40,339 nt of DNA. It comes from Verrucomicrobiales bacterium. GTDB taxonomy: Bacteria > Verrucomicrobiota > Verrucomicrobiia > Limisphaerales > UBA11320. The notes beneath the pieces were generated by a model that was given only the letters and a program-made list of their open reading frames with translations, ran no database searches and was not told the DNA's origin. A program made the position numbers and the translations under genes. Shown here piece after piece: positions 10,861 through 37,175 of this stretch. Numbering within the stretch: the first letter of the stretch is position 1; every line of letters starts with the position of its first letter. The stretch lies in assembly GCA_016793885.1 (NCBI GenBank), contig JAEUHE010000153.1, positions 1 through 40,339 of the forward strand, written 5' to 3'.

Positions 10861-10951
10861 GTGGCATCGCTGCGCGATGCTCTTGGTTTGTGCGGATCCA
10901 TTCCGGGGATCTTCGATCGCCCGGCTAATCTCTGTGCCCCCCTCGGGGGGC
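10861..10951 (-). repeat. Half copy of the palindromic repeat unit, reverse orientation
   Basis: Begins with GTGGCATCGC-TGCGCGATGC, the terminal hairpin of the 208-bp units found at 30979-32890, then GGGGATC, GATCGCCCGGCTAATCTCTG and a GC hairpin (10936-10942 with 10945-10951). The rest of the unit (hairpins C, B and A) is missing. It lies in the 256-bp gap between the divergent SDR and PSD1 genes, which otherwise shows no gene. Confidence 0.85.
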
Positions 10952-11053
10952 GGGTAGTTTCCACATGCCCACTGGCGGCAGTGGTGATTGGCAGCTGGGG
11001 ACGGACACTCTTTTCTGCTTACAAACGTCCGTCCGGACGCTATTCTTCGTCCC

Positions 11054-24912: not shown

Positions 24913-25134
24913 GTGGCATCGCTGCGCGATGCTCCTGGTTTTGGGGAACGTTTCCGGGGATCTTCGATCGCCCGGCTAATCTTTGTGACCCCACTCCGGG
25001 GTCGGGCGTTCGCCATTACCCTCTGTCGGCGGTCAACCCGGCAGGGTTGCCTGAGATTAGCCGGTGGTCGACGTCTCGCGTCGACCACCGGGTTCGGGTT
25101 CCAAAAACCCCGCACCCCCGCAGGGGCGTGCCAC
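24913..25134 (-). repeat. Full-length solitary copy of the palindromic unit, inverted
   Basis: The unit runs GTGGCATCGC-TGCGCGATGC (hairpin F), GGGGATC, CCGGCTAATCT, a GACCCC/GGGGTC hairpin (D), CAACCC-GGCA-GGGTTG (C), GAGATTAGCCGG, the long GGTGGTCGACG/CGTCGACCACC hairpin (B), a distal GCACCCC/GGGGCGTG hairpin (A) and ends GTGCCAC. Order and outer GTGGCA/TGCCAC ends match the units at 30979-32890 in reverse orientation. It accounts for most of the 387-bp gap between the pseudopilin gene and the heme fusion gene; the rest (24760-24912) shows only another GCCCC/GGGGC hairpin. Confidence 0.9.
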
Positions 25135-30978: not shown

Positions 30979-31186
30979 GGTGGCACCCCTCAGGGGTGCG
31001 GGGTTATTGGGCCGGGAACCGGTGGTCGATGCGAGGCATCGACCACCGGCTAATCTCTGGCAACCCTGCCGGGTTTGACTGGAAGCTGCGGGGTTTCGAC
31101 CCCCGCGGGGTCGTAGAGATTAGCCGGGCGATCGCAGATCCCCGGAACCGATCCGCAGAATGCGGAGCATCGCGCAGCGATGCCAC
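30979..31186 (+). repeat. Palindromic unit 1 (type I-like)
   Basis: Contains A (GCACCCC/GGGGTGC), B as a perfect 14-bp stem (31019-31032 with 31036-31049, loop GAG), the GGCTAATCTCT/AGAGATTAGCC outer stem enclosing hairpins C and D, the GATC-GCA-GATC motif, E (CCGCA-GAA-TGCGG) and F (GCATCGC-GCA-GCGATGC). The linker between C and D is a diverged form of type I, so this copy is older or less homogenised than units 3-6. Confidence 0.9.
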
Positions 31187-31202
31187 GCGTTGGGCTGGTG
31201 AA

Positions 31203-31410
31203 GGTGGCACCCCATCCGGGGTGCGGTGTTGTGGGGCCGTGAACCGGTGGTCTATGCAAGGCATCGACCACCGGCTAAGCTCTGGCAACCCTGCCGGGTT
31301 GACGTGAAGCGGTCCGGCCTCGACCCCCGCGGGGTCGTAGAGATTAGCCGGGTGATCGCAGATCCCCGGAACCCACGCGCAAAACCCAGAGCATCGCGCA
31401 GCGATGCCAC
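31203..31410 (+). repeat. Palindromic unit 2 (type II)
   Basis: Same order of hairpins, with the type II linker (GTGAAGCGGTCCGGCCTC). Hairpin B has a mismatch (GGTCTATGC against GCATCGACC), the boundary reads CTAAGCTCT instead of CTAATCTCT, and hairpin E is lost (AACCCACGCGCAAAACCC). It ends 150 bp before the transposase start. Confidence 0.9.
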
Positions 31411-31560
31411 GACGTGCGGGGAGTATAGCGCCCGCAATCTACCTCAAAACAGGATCGCTTTCGCCATTGCTTTCCTGCCCTGGCTCGCCAAATTTCGGCC
31501 CCGGGAGACGGTTAAGGAGCCGAACCCCATTCAATCAACATTCATGATTAGAGAATTCGT

Positions 31561-32004
31561 ATGCCTTCAATCTATCTGAGTCTTCACTGCCACGTCGTTT
31601 TTTCCACTAAACATCGGGCTCGGCTCATCACACCAGATTGGCGAGATGGGTTTCATCGATACATGGGTGGGACGATTCGGGGCCTGGGAGCGATCCCTGA
31701 GAGCATTGGGGGCGTGGAGGATCATGTGCACGTGCTGCTCGGGCTCCGAGCCACGCACGGGTTGTCCGATTTCATGCGCGAGTTGAAGAAGGCCACATCC
31801 GTCTGGGCCGTGAAGAAACACGATGACACCTTTGGATGGCAGGATGGGTATGCGGCATTCAGTGTCAGCTACACCCACCTTCCGAGTGTCAAAACGTACA
31901 TCGAAAACCAGGTGGAGCATCACCGCCATTGTACCTTCGGAGATGAATTGAAGCGATTGATGGAGAAAAACGGTGTGCAGTTCGACCCGCAAGATCTGGA
32001 GTAA
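31561..32004 (+). CDS. IS200-like / REP-associated Y1 HUH transposase
   Basis: 147 residues, a single Y1_Tnp domain. The opening LHCHVVFSTKHRARL is typical. The metal-binding HUH is H55-V-H57 (EDHVHVLLGL), and the nucleophile is probably Y113 in KTYIENQVEHH with Q117 nearby. These enzymes cut and join single-stranded DNA at hairpin-marked sites; RAYT members are single-copy chromosomal genes linked to REP repeats. The ATG is at 31561; only a weak AGAG lies upstream, with TAAGGAG farther away (31512-31518). Unit 3 starts 7 bp after the stop, so the transcript probably runs into the array. Domain length is complete and the catalytic residues are intact, so it may be active. No TnpB partner. Confidence 0.9.
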   Translation: MPSIYLSLHCHVVFSTKHRARLITPDWRDGFHRYMGGTIRGLGAIPESIGGVEDHVHVLLGLRATHGLSDFMRELKKATSVWAVKKHDDTFGWQDGYAAFSVSYTHLPSVKTYIENQVEHHRHCTFGDELKRLMEKNGVQFDPQDLE

Positions 32005-32011
32005 CCGCGGA

Positions 32012-32218
32012 GTGGCACACCCTTCGGGGTGCGGTGCTTTGGGGCCAGGAACCGGTGGTCTACGCGGGGCGTTGACCACCGGCTAATCTCTGGCAACCCT
32101 GCCGGGTTGACCGGAAGCGGCGGGTCCTCGACCCCCGCGGGGTCGCAGAGATTAGCCGGGCGATCGCAGATCCCCGGAACCGATCCGCAGAATGCGGAGC
32201 ATCGCGCAGCGATGCCAC
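32012..32218 (+). repeat. Palindromic unit 3 (type I)
   Basis: Begins 7 bp after the transposase stop. It has the type I linker CCGGAAGCGGCGGGTCCTC. Its hairpin A is imperfect (GCACACCC against GGGGTGC) and the B loop is shifted (CTACGC-GGG-GCGTTG). With unit 4 it makes the first downstream dimer. Confidence 0.9.
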
Positions 32219-32234
32219 GAGTCGGGACGGGTGA

Positions 32235-32442
32235 GGTGGCACCCCATCCGGGGTGCGGCATTGGGGGGGCATGAACCGGAGGTCTACGCGAGGCGTCGAC
32301 CTCCGGCTAATCTCTGGCAACCCTAGCGGGTTGACGTGAAACGGTCCGGCCTCGACCCCCGCGGGGTCGCAGAGATTAGCCGGGTGATCGCAGATCCCCG
32401 GAACCGATCCGCAGAATGCGGAGCATCGCGCAGCGATGCCAC
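32235..32442 (+). repeat. Palindromic unit 4 (type II)
   Basis: Type II linker (CGTGAAACGGTCCGGCCTC) and an altered C hairpin (CAACCC-TAGC-GGGTTG). The B stem is changed on both arms (CCGGAGGTC and GACCTCCGG), a compensatory change that keeps pairing. The 16-bp spacer to unit 5 is GGGTCGGGACGGGTGA. Confidence 0.9.
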
Positions 32443-32458
32443 GGGTCGGGACGGGTGA

Positions 32459-32666
32459 GGTGGCACCCCATCCGGGGTGCAATGCCGTGGGGCCGCGAAC
32501 CGGTGATCGATGCGAGGCATCGACCACCGGCTAATCTCTGGCAACCCTGCCGGGTTGACCGGAAGCGGCGGGTCCTCGACCCCCGCGGGGTCGTAGAGAT
32601 TAGCCGGGCGATCGCAGATCCCCGGAACCAATCCGCAGAATGCGGAGCATCGCGCAGCGATGCCAC
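32459..32666 (+). repeat. Palindromic unit 5 (type I)
   Basis: Nearly the same as unit 3 from hairpin C onwards. Hairpin A is perfect (GCACCCC 32463-32469 with GGGGTGC 32474-32480). B has one mismatch in 14 bp (32500-32513 with 32517-32530). First half of the second downstream dimer. Confidence 0.9.
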
Positions 32667-32682
32667 GAGTCGGGACGGGTGA

Positions 32683-32890
32683 GGTGGCACCCCATCCGGG
32701 GTGCGGCATTGGGGGGGCATGAACCGGTGGTCGATGCGAGGCGTCGACCTCCGGCTGATCTCTGGCAACCCTAGCGGGTTGACGTGAAACGGTCCGGCCT
32801 CGACCCCCGCGGGGTCGCAGAGATTAGCCGGGCGATCGCAGATCCCCGGAACCGATCCGCAGAATGCGGAGCATCGCGCAGCGATGCCAC
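32683..32890 (+). repeat. Palindromic unit 6 (type II)
   Basis: Closely similar to unit 4, including TAGC in the C loop, GGGGGGGCATGAACCGG before B and the type II linker. It ends 14 bp before the stop of the convergent ABC permease gene, so the array may also affect the 3' end of that transcript. Confidence 0.9.
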
Positions 32891-32903: not shown

Positions 32904-35642
32904 CTAACGTGAACCCGCCAGGATATTCCCTAGAAGCCGCGGCCTCGACGAAGGGGCCAACAATCCCTGGTCGCCCGTCCCGAACGGCGATTCGAATCGC
33001 CAGGCCCACAGGCTGCCATCGCCCGCCAACGTGAGGATTTCCCTCCCCACAGAAGCGAGCGCCACCCAATCGGAATGAATTCCCACCTGCTTCGCCTTGG
33101 CTGATTCGGGTGCTTCGACCGGCGATTTGGGAAAACGCCATTTCCACAGAGTTCCATCCGCTCTCAACGAAATCAAGGTCCCTCGGTCTCCTCCGCTAGC
33201 GACATCGATCCAATGGCTTTTCGTCTCCCCATCGATGGGAATGTTCGCTGGCTTGTAACTCCACCGGCGGCCATTGTGGGAACTTTGCCACGCCGCCACA
33301 ATCTCGAGTTGTCCATTGGGTTGGATGCCCACCTTAAAGGGTCCGGTTGGGTCGGACTCGCTCCAGGCAGTGGTGTGTCGCGGGGCGCGGCCCGAATCCA
33401 GGTAAAACGCCCGGCCCAGTTCCGTCGTGTCGTCGAGTTTGATCCGATCCGCCATCGGTGGGTTCTCATGGGGGTGAACCCAGGCGCTTCCATCCTTTCT
33501 TAGCAGCTGAAACCCGTAACCCCAGCCTTCGGAGGTCTTGCGAAGGTCGGTCCAATCCTGGTGAGCTGATATTTCCGACGGCACTTCGTGCGACAGACCT
33601 TGGTATTCACGGACCGCTCCGAGCTTGGCTTTCTGCCAAACCCACAACGTCCCATTGGACGCAAGAAGCAGGACCCCCGATCGATACGGGACGGCCTGCT
33701 TCCAATCGCGGTCCTTCCCAAAGCGGACCATTCGAACAGGGGCACTCGGGTGGGGTTGCGTGGATCGGGCTGAAGTATGCTGCAGTTGCGGCTCCGCGGA
33801 TACCCAGAGCGAACCATCCTTTTGGATCCCCACCACGTCGAGAGCGGCATGCACGACCTGGGCCCAGTTACTGCCCCCGACGGGGAGAATCGGCTGGGTC
33901 AGCGATCCCACCACGTAGTGCCCGAAGTAACGATCCCATAGCTTTGGAAGGGGCGTCTCGTGATTGGCGCTCCAGCTGCGGCCATCAGCCGCAGTGAACG
34001 TCAGAGCGCGCCACTGAGCGTCGATTTGAATGTTCTCCTCGATCTTGAATTGTGCCGTTCCGTGCGGGTTCTCGAGCGGGGTTATTCGTTCCCAGGCTCG
34101 ATGATAGATCAAGGAACTCAGCGCGATGGAGCCGACCAAGGCGACCCCCAGGGTAAGGCCGTTCCTCTTCCAGAGTTCCGGTCCGACCTCCACGCGATAA
34201 GAATTGCGCACACTGCGCCACCACATCGATGCCACCAGGGTGCTCACGATCAGGATGACTGCCAGCGGGCTGCGAATGGCGTCTAGCATCCAGGGAGCAG
34301 GCTGGTATGCCAACGCCAAGCTCATCGCCAACGCCATCAACAGGCAGAAGGCGGTGGTTGATACGGCATGCATGACCGATCGGCTCATGGATGACGCGAA
34401 AACGGAAAGCGTCAGAAGTCCCAAAGAAACCAAGGCCAACTCCACCAACGGCTCGGGATGGAACGGAAGGGACTGAACACCTTGGGCAAAGAGGAGTGCC
34501 CAACGGGAGAAACCTCCCTCGCTTTCCAATTGTGCCCTCTCTTGAATCAAGCTCATTGGGTCGAAGCGTGACTCGGAGAAGAGTTGGTTCCGCTCCAGGG
34601 CGATCGGAAGAATGCTGCCTGCCAGGAGGGTGATGACCACCATCACGATAACCTTGATCGCGACTTGAGTGGATCGGGGGTAGGGCAGGGTGAGCTGGCT
34701 TTCCCAAGTGCCGAGGCGACGCTCCTCGGAAATCATGTGGCACCCCATTAGGACCGGGAGCACCAGCCAGCTCACCCAGTAGTAGGTACAGGCCAGCTCC
34801 GCGGTGGCATTGCGGCTGAGATCGATCGAGGACCGCAGAGCGATTACTGCGAGATGTGCCACCAGGTTCCATGGGATGAAGGTTAGGAATCCGCGGTGCA
34901 TCCGCAGCTCCTTGCACCAGAGTGTCATCCCAGGGCGTCGATGGCAAAATTCAGCGAACCACGCTGGGAGTCTGGGGCCAGGTTTGCTAGCATCGATCAT
35001 CGTGATCACCTCCAGGGGCGATCCTCGGTGCTCCAGCCGCAGAAAGAGCCGGAAGGCTGACGACAGACATGCAACCACATAGACGGCGAGCAGGGCGGTT
35101 ACATACGCCTCCGAATTGGTGACCCGGCCCTCCAGAAAACTTTCACTGAACATGATTGGGACGGTGGGCCCTAACGCTGCAATCCAGAAGGCGGTGATGG
35201 TGGATCGGGTGATCAGGATCGCCCAAAGCCCGCCGGAAAGTAACGCTGCTGCCAGTAGCGGAGTCCTGACCTGCAGCGCTGCCAGCTCGGCTGGGGTGTG
35301 GTTTACGGTGAAGTGAAATTGGAAAACCTGCCACCAGCCCCACCACAGCAGCATGGTGAAACACGCCAGGAGCAAAGCCTTGAGTCCCCAGACCCGCGCT
35401 CGAGAGATGGGCTGGCTGAGGAACTGGCCAATCATGTTCGGAGAGATTTCGCGTCCGAATGCGCCTATGACCATCAGGATGGCGAGAATGGGGCAGACCA
35501 TCATCAAGGGAATGCCAACCAACCCAAAACTCACTCCTTGGCCAAACTGCCGCGGTACCAGCTTAACGAGGAGAAGCAGGACGACGATGAGCACCACGTT
35601 GGGCAGCAGCATCCTGACTTCCTTGCGGATCCATGGGCTCAT
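32904..35642 (-). CDS. ABC-2 type permease with C-terminal RCC1-like domain
   Basis: 912 residues. The first ~540 residues hold about a dozen hydrophobic segments (for example NVVLIVVLLLLVKLV, IPLMMVCPILAILMVIGAFG, VIVMVVITLLAGSILPIAL), arranged like two ABC-2 halves, with the cytoplasmic-looking ISEERRLGTWESQL before the later helices. The last ~370 residues are soluble and repeat short motifs of RCC1/propeller type: KDGSLWVS, SNGTLWVWQ, KDGSAWVH, ADGTLWKWRF and GDGSLWAWRF. This part probably lies outside the membrane. The start overlaps the ATPase stop by 4 bp (ATGA). It probably forms an exporter with that ATPase; the propeller may bind a partner or substrate. I know of no standard transporter with this tail. 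Confidence 0.83.
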   Translation of the reverse strand: MSPWIRKEVRMLLPNVVLIVVLLLLVKLVPRQFGQGVSFGLVGIPLMMVCPILAILMVIGAFGREISPNMIGQFLSQPISRARVWGLKALLLACFTMLLWWGWWQVFQFHFTVNHTPAELAALQVRTPLLAAALLSGGLWAILITRSTITAFWIAALGPTVPIMFSESFLEGRVTNSEAYVTALLAVYVVACLSSAFRLFLRLEHRGSPLEVITMIDASKPGPRLPAWFAEFCHRRPGMTLWCKELRMHRGFLTFIPWNLVAHLAVIALRSSIDLSRNATAELACTYYWVSWLVLPVLMGCHMISEERRLGTWESQLTLPYPRSTQVAIKVIVMVVITLLAGSILPIALERNQLFSESRFDPMSLIQERAQLESEGGFSRWALLFAQGVQSLPFHPEPLVELALVSLGLLTLSVFASSMSRSVMHAVSTTAFCLLMALAMSLALAYQPAPWMLDAIRSPLAVILIVSTLVASMWWRSVRNSYRVEVGPELWKRNGLTLGVALVGSIALSSLIYHRAWERITPLENPHGTAQFKIEENIQIDAQWRALTFTAADGRSWSANHETPLPKLWDRYFGHYVVGSLTQPILPVGGSNWAQVVHAALDVVGIQKDGSLWVSAEPQLQHTSARSTQPHPSAPVRMVRFGKDRDWKQAVPYRSGVLLLASNGTLWVWQKAKLGAVREYQGLSHEVPSEISAHQDWTDLRKTSEGWGYGFQLLRKDGSAWVHPHENPPMADRIKLDDTTELGRAFYLDSGRAPRHTTAWSESDPTGPFKVGIQPNGQLEIVAAWQSSHNGRRWSYKPANIPIDGETKSHWIDVASGGDRGTLISLRADGTLWKWRFPKSPVEAPESAKAKQVGIHSDWVALASVGREILTLAGDGSLWAWRFESPFGTGDQGLLAPSSRPRLLGNILAGSR

Positions 35643-37080: not shown

Positions 37081-37175
37081 GTGGGCAGTGGGCAGTGGGC
37101 AGTGGGCAGTGGGGGTCAGTTGTCAGTTGTCAGTGGTCAGTGGTCAGTGGTCAGTGGTCAGTGGTCAGTGGTCAG
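37081..37175. repeat. Heptanucleotide tandem repeat
   Basis: Four copies of GTGGGCA, then two of TCAGTTG and six of TCAGTGG in strict 7-bp register, ending in a partial TCAG. The region 36997-37209 holds no gene; it lies between the GntR operon promoter and the mnmE stop. Such a tract is prone to slippage, and its length probably varies among strains. Confidence 0.92.

Follow-up and report, generated by a model that had tools for sequence, protein, structure and literature searches.

A subclass 1.2 Y1 transposase gene and its three-hairpin repeats in a Verrucomicrobiales contig: a probable REPtron-like element

Introduction

A gene for a Y1/HUH transposase lies inside an array of large, hairpin-rich repeats on a Verrucomicrobiales contig, of which we analysed a stretch of 40,339 nucleotides (the window). 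The locus raises the question of whether enzyme and repeats belong to one system and, if they do, how that system relates to REP/RAYT pairs, IS200/IS605 elements and TIRtrons, or whether a mobile gene came to rest among repeats that have nothing to do with it.

Results

The transposase gene lies between the dimers of a repeat array

The features of the window are listed below; R1 is a covariance model described in the next section, and the strand of each R1 match is given in parentheses.

10861..10953, minus strand: solitary half-unit (monomer), 85% identity
18272..18358, minus strand: solitary diverged half-unit, 78% identity
24912..25137, minus strand: solitary diverged unit copy, intergenic, 6 kb from the array, 76% identity; R1 25034-25129(+)
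30980..31186, no strand: unit 1, linker X, inverted pair of three-hairpin elements; R1 30983-31076(-), 31097-31183(+)
31204..31410, no strand: unit 2, linker Y, its right half being the upstream terminal repeat of tnpA; R1 31207-31301(-), 31321-31407(+)
31561..32004, plus strand: tnpA, Y1/HUH transposase, 147 aa; Pfam Y1_Tnp 5.8e-20, 72 bits
32012..32218, no strand: unit 3, linker X, its left half, 7 bp past the tnpA stop, being the downstream terminal repeat; R1 32015-32109(-), 32129-32215(+)
32236..32442, no strand: unit 4, linker Y; R1 32239-32333(-), 32353-32439(+)
32460..32666, no strand: unit 5, linker X; R1 32463-32557(-), 32577-32663(+)
32684..32890, no strand: unit 6, linker Y, the last; R1 32687-32781(-), 32801-32887(+)

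Six units of ~224 bp, all in one orientation, start at 30980, 31204, 32012, 32236, 32460 and 32684, with start-to-start spacings of 224, 808, 224, 224 and 224. The array occupies a gap bounded by two minus-strand genes, and unit 6 precedes the stop, at 32904, of the next of them. In the downstream part of the array, Tandem Repeats Finder scored a period of 448 (94% matches, score 1606) above a period of 224 (88% matches, score 1395), and we therefore take the 448-bp dimer to be real. Upstream of the gene the linkers are X then Y, and downstream they run X, Y, X, Y; the Y-linker units after the gene are 97.6% identical to each other. The alternation of linkers, together with the 448-bp period, places tnpA between dimers. 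The original prediction had described an intact Y1 transposase, two same-orientation units before it and four after, two alternating linker types forming ~448-bp dimers with the gene between them, and a third unit 7 bp after the stop; each part of that description was borne out. A single unit folds much more stably than dinucleotide shuffles, with a z-score of -4.9 as DNA and -4.6 as RNA. Elsewhere in the window, at 37081-37175, the 7-mer GTGGTCA is repeated in tandem in about 13 copies.

The basic repeat is a half-unit with three covarying hairpins

The 224-bp unit had been predicted to be the basic element. We found instead that it consists of two inverted halves of like architecture, and that the basic element is the half-unit, placed as a terminal inverted repeat. 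It is ~95 nt long and has its three hairpins in the order A, B, C; a linker of ~12 nt, with AG as its last two bases, separates A from B, and a spacer of ~22 nt separates B from C. Read inward from either end, a window unit runs through hairpin C, spacer, hairpin B, CTAATCTCT, hairpin A and linker, followed by the mirror image. Hairpin C of the window units is GCACCCC..GGGGTGC or GCATCGC..GCGATGC, and hairpin B has CCGG at its start and at its end. The upstream terminal repeat stands 150 bp from the tnpA start codon, where ~10 bp is usual elsewhere. The most fitting reading of the array is a stack of inverted pairs, one of which has tnpA in its short centre.

We aligned 45 half-units, picked partly for clear hairpins. 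In this alignment (A3) 94.8% of cells were paired and 156 double changes occurred, as against at most 52% and 32 with slid partners. Because hairpins had been selected for in A3, independent support for them comes from the inverted-repeat test described below and from held-out loci. The covariance model R1 was made from A3 and applied to loci outside the building set, where 150 hits showed 98.3% pairing and 487 double changes in the fitted alignment. R1 also detected all 12 of the 12 half-units of the window array.

At the two bases before hairpin B, the held-out hits carry A in 147/150 and G in 145/150 cases, and the other linker positions vary. A pyrimidine-A-T pattern or a similar one recurs ~5 bases past hairpin A and likewise past hairpin C, and is a candidate cleavage site. 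A classical REP is a single hairpin of 20-50 nt whose 5' foot carries GT[AG]G. Like REPs, the repeat studied here has a short tag whose last two bases are AG at the 5' foot of a hairpin, presumably the one recognised. It differs in spanning three covarying hairpins over ~95 nt and in its tag, which reads NAG, in the window TTAG, instead of GT[AG]G; only the AG is near-invariant. GTGG/CCAC at the outer ends of the window units was also considered as a REP tag and rejected: GTGG is found at hairpin C in the window and relatives do not keep it, in contrast to the AG before hairpin B.

The enzyme fits TnpA-Y1 subclass 1.2

The tnpA gene is intact and encodes a single Y1_Tnp domain with the motifs EDHVH, GWQ and YIENQVEHH. 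H55, H57, Y115, Q119, H122 and H123 are unchanged across 14 relatives, and the closest relatives of solved structure are transposases of the IS200/IS605 type. The only NCBIfam model that the protein matched over cut-off was transpos_IS200 (56.6, cut-off 55); REP_Tyr_transpos, the RAYT model, gave no match over cut-off. A new type of REP/RAYT system had been suggested in the original prediction. Its core, that enzyme and large structured unit belong together, is strongly supported by flanking position, orientation and genome-wide co-occurrence, as reported below. The enzyme calls for a correction, since its sequence is not that of a RAYT, given its Y---Q--HH signature in place of the Y---NP motif of RAYTs, its match to the IS200 model and its lack of a match to the RAYT one.

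The motifs DH[IV]H (DHVH in the window), WQ and Y---Q--HH, together with a length of ~148 aa, describe subclass 1.2 of the TnpA-Y1 transposases (Quentin et al. 2018; table in PMC6006769). Judged by motif and length, the window enzyme belongs to this subclass, which it also resembles in its low copy number and in having 147 aa compared with a median of 148. Insertion sequences of subclass 1.1 (IS200/IS605, for example IS608 and ISDra2) have the same Y1 HUH core, the closest solved structures and hairpins near their ends. We rejected this identity for the locus, however, since near-identical multi-copy elements were not found here and the ends are long, symmetric, inverted and three-hairpinned.

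The genome from which the window comes has two subclass 1.2 genes, which are 37% identical. The second (L021, contig C14: 50721-54062) has its own three-hairpin array of different sequence. No element was found alongside the class 2 Y1 genes of the same genome.

Three-hairpin repeats flank subclass 1.2 genes in several phyla

In genomes of the same order, most of the subclass 1.2 genes examined are flanked by inverted repeats of ~90-130 bp whose sequences are wholly different and whose design is alike. A broad TnpA alignment offered no stretch with the conservation that a scan requires; with a narrower one, a scan of public genomes gave 80 loci, 77 of them with enough flank. The 80 loci span Verrucomicrobia, Planctomycetes, Acidobacteria, Lentisphaerae, Armatimonadetes, Bacteroidetes and others. 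An inverted repeat (score of at least 40, within 350 bp, folding not used) lay near the gene at 59/77 subclass 1.2 loci, compared with 1/177 random places in the same loci.

With R1, an element was found no more than 300 bp from tnpA in 55/57 held-out loci, and on both sides of the gene in 33. Element density in the held-out loci was 1.50 per kb within 1 kb of the gene and 0.031 per kb beyond, a 48-fold difference. The nearest elements pointed hairpin C towards the gene in 78 cases and in the opposite direction in 10 (n = 88, held-out loci); in G019, tnpA is placed between hairpins A and not C. Subclass 1.2 had been published without REPs and mostly from Cyanobacteria and Bacteroidetes (PMC6006769). 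Unlike the published members, those described here have three-hairpin repeats alongside and occur in Verrucomicrobia, Planctomycetes and Acidobacteria, among others.

Element and enzyme co-occur in genomes

The original prediction had suggested searching related genomes for both unit and transposase, and the two do co-occur: among 145 near-complete genomes across the phylum, 18 had both, 5 the enzyme only, 4 the element only and 118 neither (p = 5e-15). Within the order (58 genomes), at least 10 elements were present in 26/34 genomes with the enzyme, as opposed to 5/24 without it (p = 4e-5). Elements were absent from genomes with only short IS200-type genes (G099, G129 and others), of which there were up to twelve copies, and the link is therefore specific to subclass 1.2. 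Elements with no detectable enzyme were found in four to six genomes of the phylum set and in five of the order set. Units in genomes that lack the transposase had been named in advance as what could break the link; such genomes exist as a minority, 4/122 of the enzyme-lacking genomes of the phylum set.

These data bear on the idea that an ordinary IS200/IS605 insertion landed by chance in a tandem repeat, with gene and array unrelated. NCBIfam does label the protein IS200/IS605, and it is a single-domain protein of IS size. Chance landing is nonetheless contradicted by the co-occurrence and held-out tests, since the association recurs in 55/57 loci. Genomes with many true IS200-type copies and no elements count against it as well, as do the two subclass 1.2 genes of the window's own genome, diverged as they are and each among its own three-hairpin repeats. 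We consider it extremely unlikely. Instead, the locus most likely represents a REPtron-like system in which a TnpA-Y1 enzyme of subclass 1.2 is paired with a longer, three-hairpin repeat of a new type. In sequence the enzyme falls outside the RAYTs, and the repeat differs from a canonical REP.

A separate observation was made in G017 (L202-L205), which has no detectable subclass 1.2 enzyme and in which same-orientation units with the motif ATTAGCCGG lie 278-613 bp apart.

Acido-Lenti-1 RNA coincides with one half of the element

The Rfam family RF01687 (Acido-Lenti-1) coincides exactly with the A-B half of the element, on the opposite strand; in the second array of the window's own genome and in relatives it covers positions 2-47. 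It scored over the gathering threshold in related arrays, including the second system of the window's own genome (L021), and was found at tnpA-flanking copies in L105, L155, L161 and L021 and at a dispersed copy in L172. In the own genome, at least 11 of the 17 strong RF01687 hits compared lay at positions 2-47 of the R1 hits listed. RF01687 did not match the window array at E<=1; the copies there are diverged. In the phylum set, RF01687 was present in 20/23 enzyme genomes and in 6/122 others, and 22/23 enzyme genomes had an element by either R1 or RF01687.

Acido-Lenti-1 was listed as a likely RNA, with no function given, by Weinberg et al. 2010 (PMC2864571), and according to a 2026 paper little is known about it and it may regulate protease genes (PMC13298647). 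Our search of the open-access literature found no paper linking either subclass 1.2 or Acido-Lenti-1 to such repeats. In Rfam, RF01687 is treated as a 46-nt RNA gene; in our data the same stretch makes up the A-B half of a DNA repeat that is longer and adjoins a transposase gene. Acido-Lenti-1 thus seems to belong to a mobile DNA element, which would explain a family that has been an orphan since 2010 and catalogued as non-coding RNA.

The repeats could still act mainly as RNA, as hairpin-array transcripts, sRNA or 3'-end structures, with the enzyme link a by-product of their spread. The Rfam entry and the listing by Weinberg et al. (PMC2864571), a stable RNA fold and the intergenic position of the copies fit such a role. 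Inverted pairs on both sides of tnpA, however, put the structure on both strands, element-bearing genomes mostly have the enzyme too, and the pairing patterns would serve single-stranded DNA equally. We regard a mainly RNA role as quite improbable and favour a DNA element recognised by the enzyme.

A contig of a Verrucomicrobiaceae MAG (L088 21-2999) carries a tRNA gene cluster around a GOLLD RNA, 7 kb from a transposase.

Inverted pairs are dispersed through genomes

In the window's own genome (8.7 Mb), the motif AGAGATTAGCCGG had 152 matches with at most one mismatch, compared with 7 for the reversed motif. Several of the copies form inverted pairs in which hairpin A is on the outside. No clear target duplication was seen at these pairs and none around tnpA-bearing copies; apart from one 10-bp match in L020, neither set exceeded chance.

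In G041, a genome of a different family, inverted pairs of ~208 bp with sharp ends are scattered throughout. The ends of family 1 run nine bases past hairpin A, and GTATnTGTT lies beyond hairpin A. Its borders (L167-L186) carry 9-bp direct repeats: identity was 0.647 at the exact offset compared with 0.319 for mismatched flanks, and 8/17 copies matched at 8-9 of 9 positions, as did 1.1% of mismatched flanks. Insertions in G041 are often within host palindromes, and elements can be nested, one repeat family being inserted into hairpin B of another (L226, C121: 2767-3560). The sites examined at which element ends had no partner ~208 bp away turned out to be nested elements, pairs of a related kind or matches by chance, with no other transposase gene.

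The known IS200/IS605 reaction produces no target duplications. Since the standard reaction would not make the 9-bp repeats, this family may have been moved by another enzyme or by an unfamiliar route. By one such account the pairs would be MITEs belonging to an unrelated DDE transposase, one that duplicates 9 bp of its target, and TnpA would be a passenger or a domesticated gene within them. The direct repeats and exact ends of family 1 are what this account predicts, and the frequent insertion into host palindromes agrees with it. Yet the same architecture is found on the borders of subclass 1.2 TnpA genes in many genomes, despite quite different sequences, the phylum-wide co-occurrence is with TnpA, and the family 1 end sites examined bounded paired elements only (one with a nested element) and no other transposase gene. 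We judge a DDE origin unlikely. It is similarly doubtful that the subclass 1.2 enzyme itself moves the three-hairpin inverted-repeat elements while duplicating ~9 bp of palindromic targets, with the orphan Rfam RNA as its recognition site; if it did, the ~9-bp duplication would be a transposition mode new for single-strand Y1 transposases.

Under the REPtron-like reading, the dispersed inverted pairs look like REPIN/MITE derivatives. Some dispersed copies in G019 (L235, L242) contain an internally deleted tnpA, in which the ATG is fused to the last codons to leave ~20 codons (MAQVFLNKYGVKYNQANVWD-stop), and this remnant ties the dispersed copies to the enzyme gene.

A proposed mechanism and its relation to known systems

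We consider it probable that the window holds a REPtron-like element, composed of a subclass 1.2 Y1 (HUH, IS200-related) transposase and its cognate ~95-nt three-hairpin repeat, that works as follows. A TnpA dimer would bind the folded module on exposed single-stranded DNA, for example on the lagging-strand template. The near-invariant AG just 5' of hairpin B would act as a guide, by analogy with the similarly placed last two bases of GTAG in classical REPs, which influence the choice of cleavage site (PMC8266576). TnpA would then cut near the module, and inverted pairs that lack the gene may be mobilised in trans as REPIN/MITE-like elements.

Such a system resembles REP/RAYT (TnpA_REP class 2, for example in E. 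coli) in that a Y1 gene is bordered by dispersed hairpin repeats, with inverted pairs and tandem arrays, and in its low-copy, diverged enzyme; the enzyme and repeat differ as described above. TIRYTs and TIRtrons (De Nocera et al. 2013, PMC3733652) likewise combine Y1 genes with long inverted flanking repeats and dispersed copies, and some TIRtron repeats are self-complementary or form dispersed dimeric families (PMC3733652). Their enzymes, however, are mostly of subclass 2.1 with a C-terminal HTH, and their repeats were described as diverse, without a three-hairpin architecture. We rejected this type for the window TnpA, which consists of Y1_Tnp alone. If the proposed reading is right, a transposase subclass published as REP-free gains a cognate repeat of conserved and testable architecture. 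Because enzyme and repeat are both intermediate between IS200 and classical REP/RAYT, the origin of REP-like elements from IS200-like ancestors also becomes testable.

The 224-bp array would consist of such pairs in head-to-tail order on both sides of the enzyme gene, grown as a 448-bp dimer, plausibly via slippage, unequal recombination or rolling-circle copying. Arrays adjoining tnpA were also found in L155 (period ~222 bp) and G032 C46, and with this recurrence, local amplification beside the enzyme gene seems to be part of the system's life.
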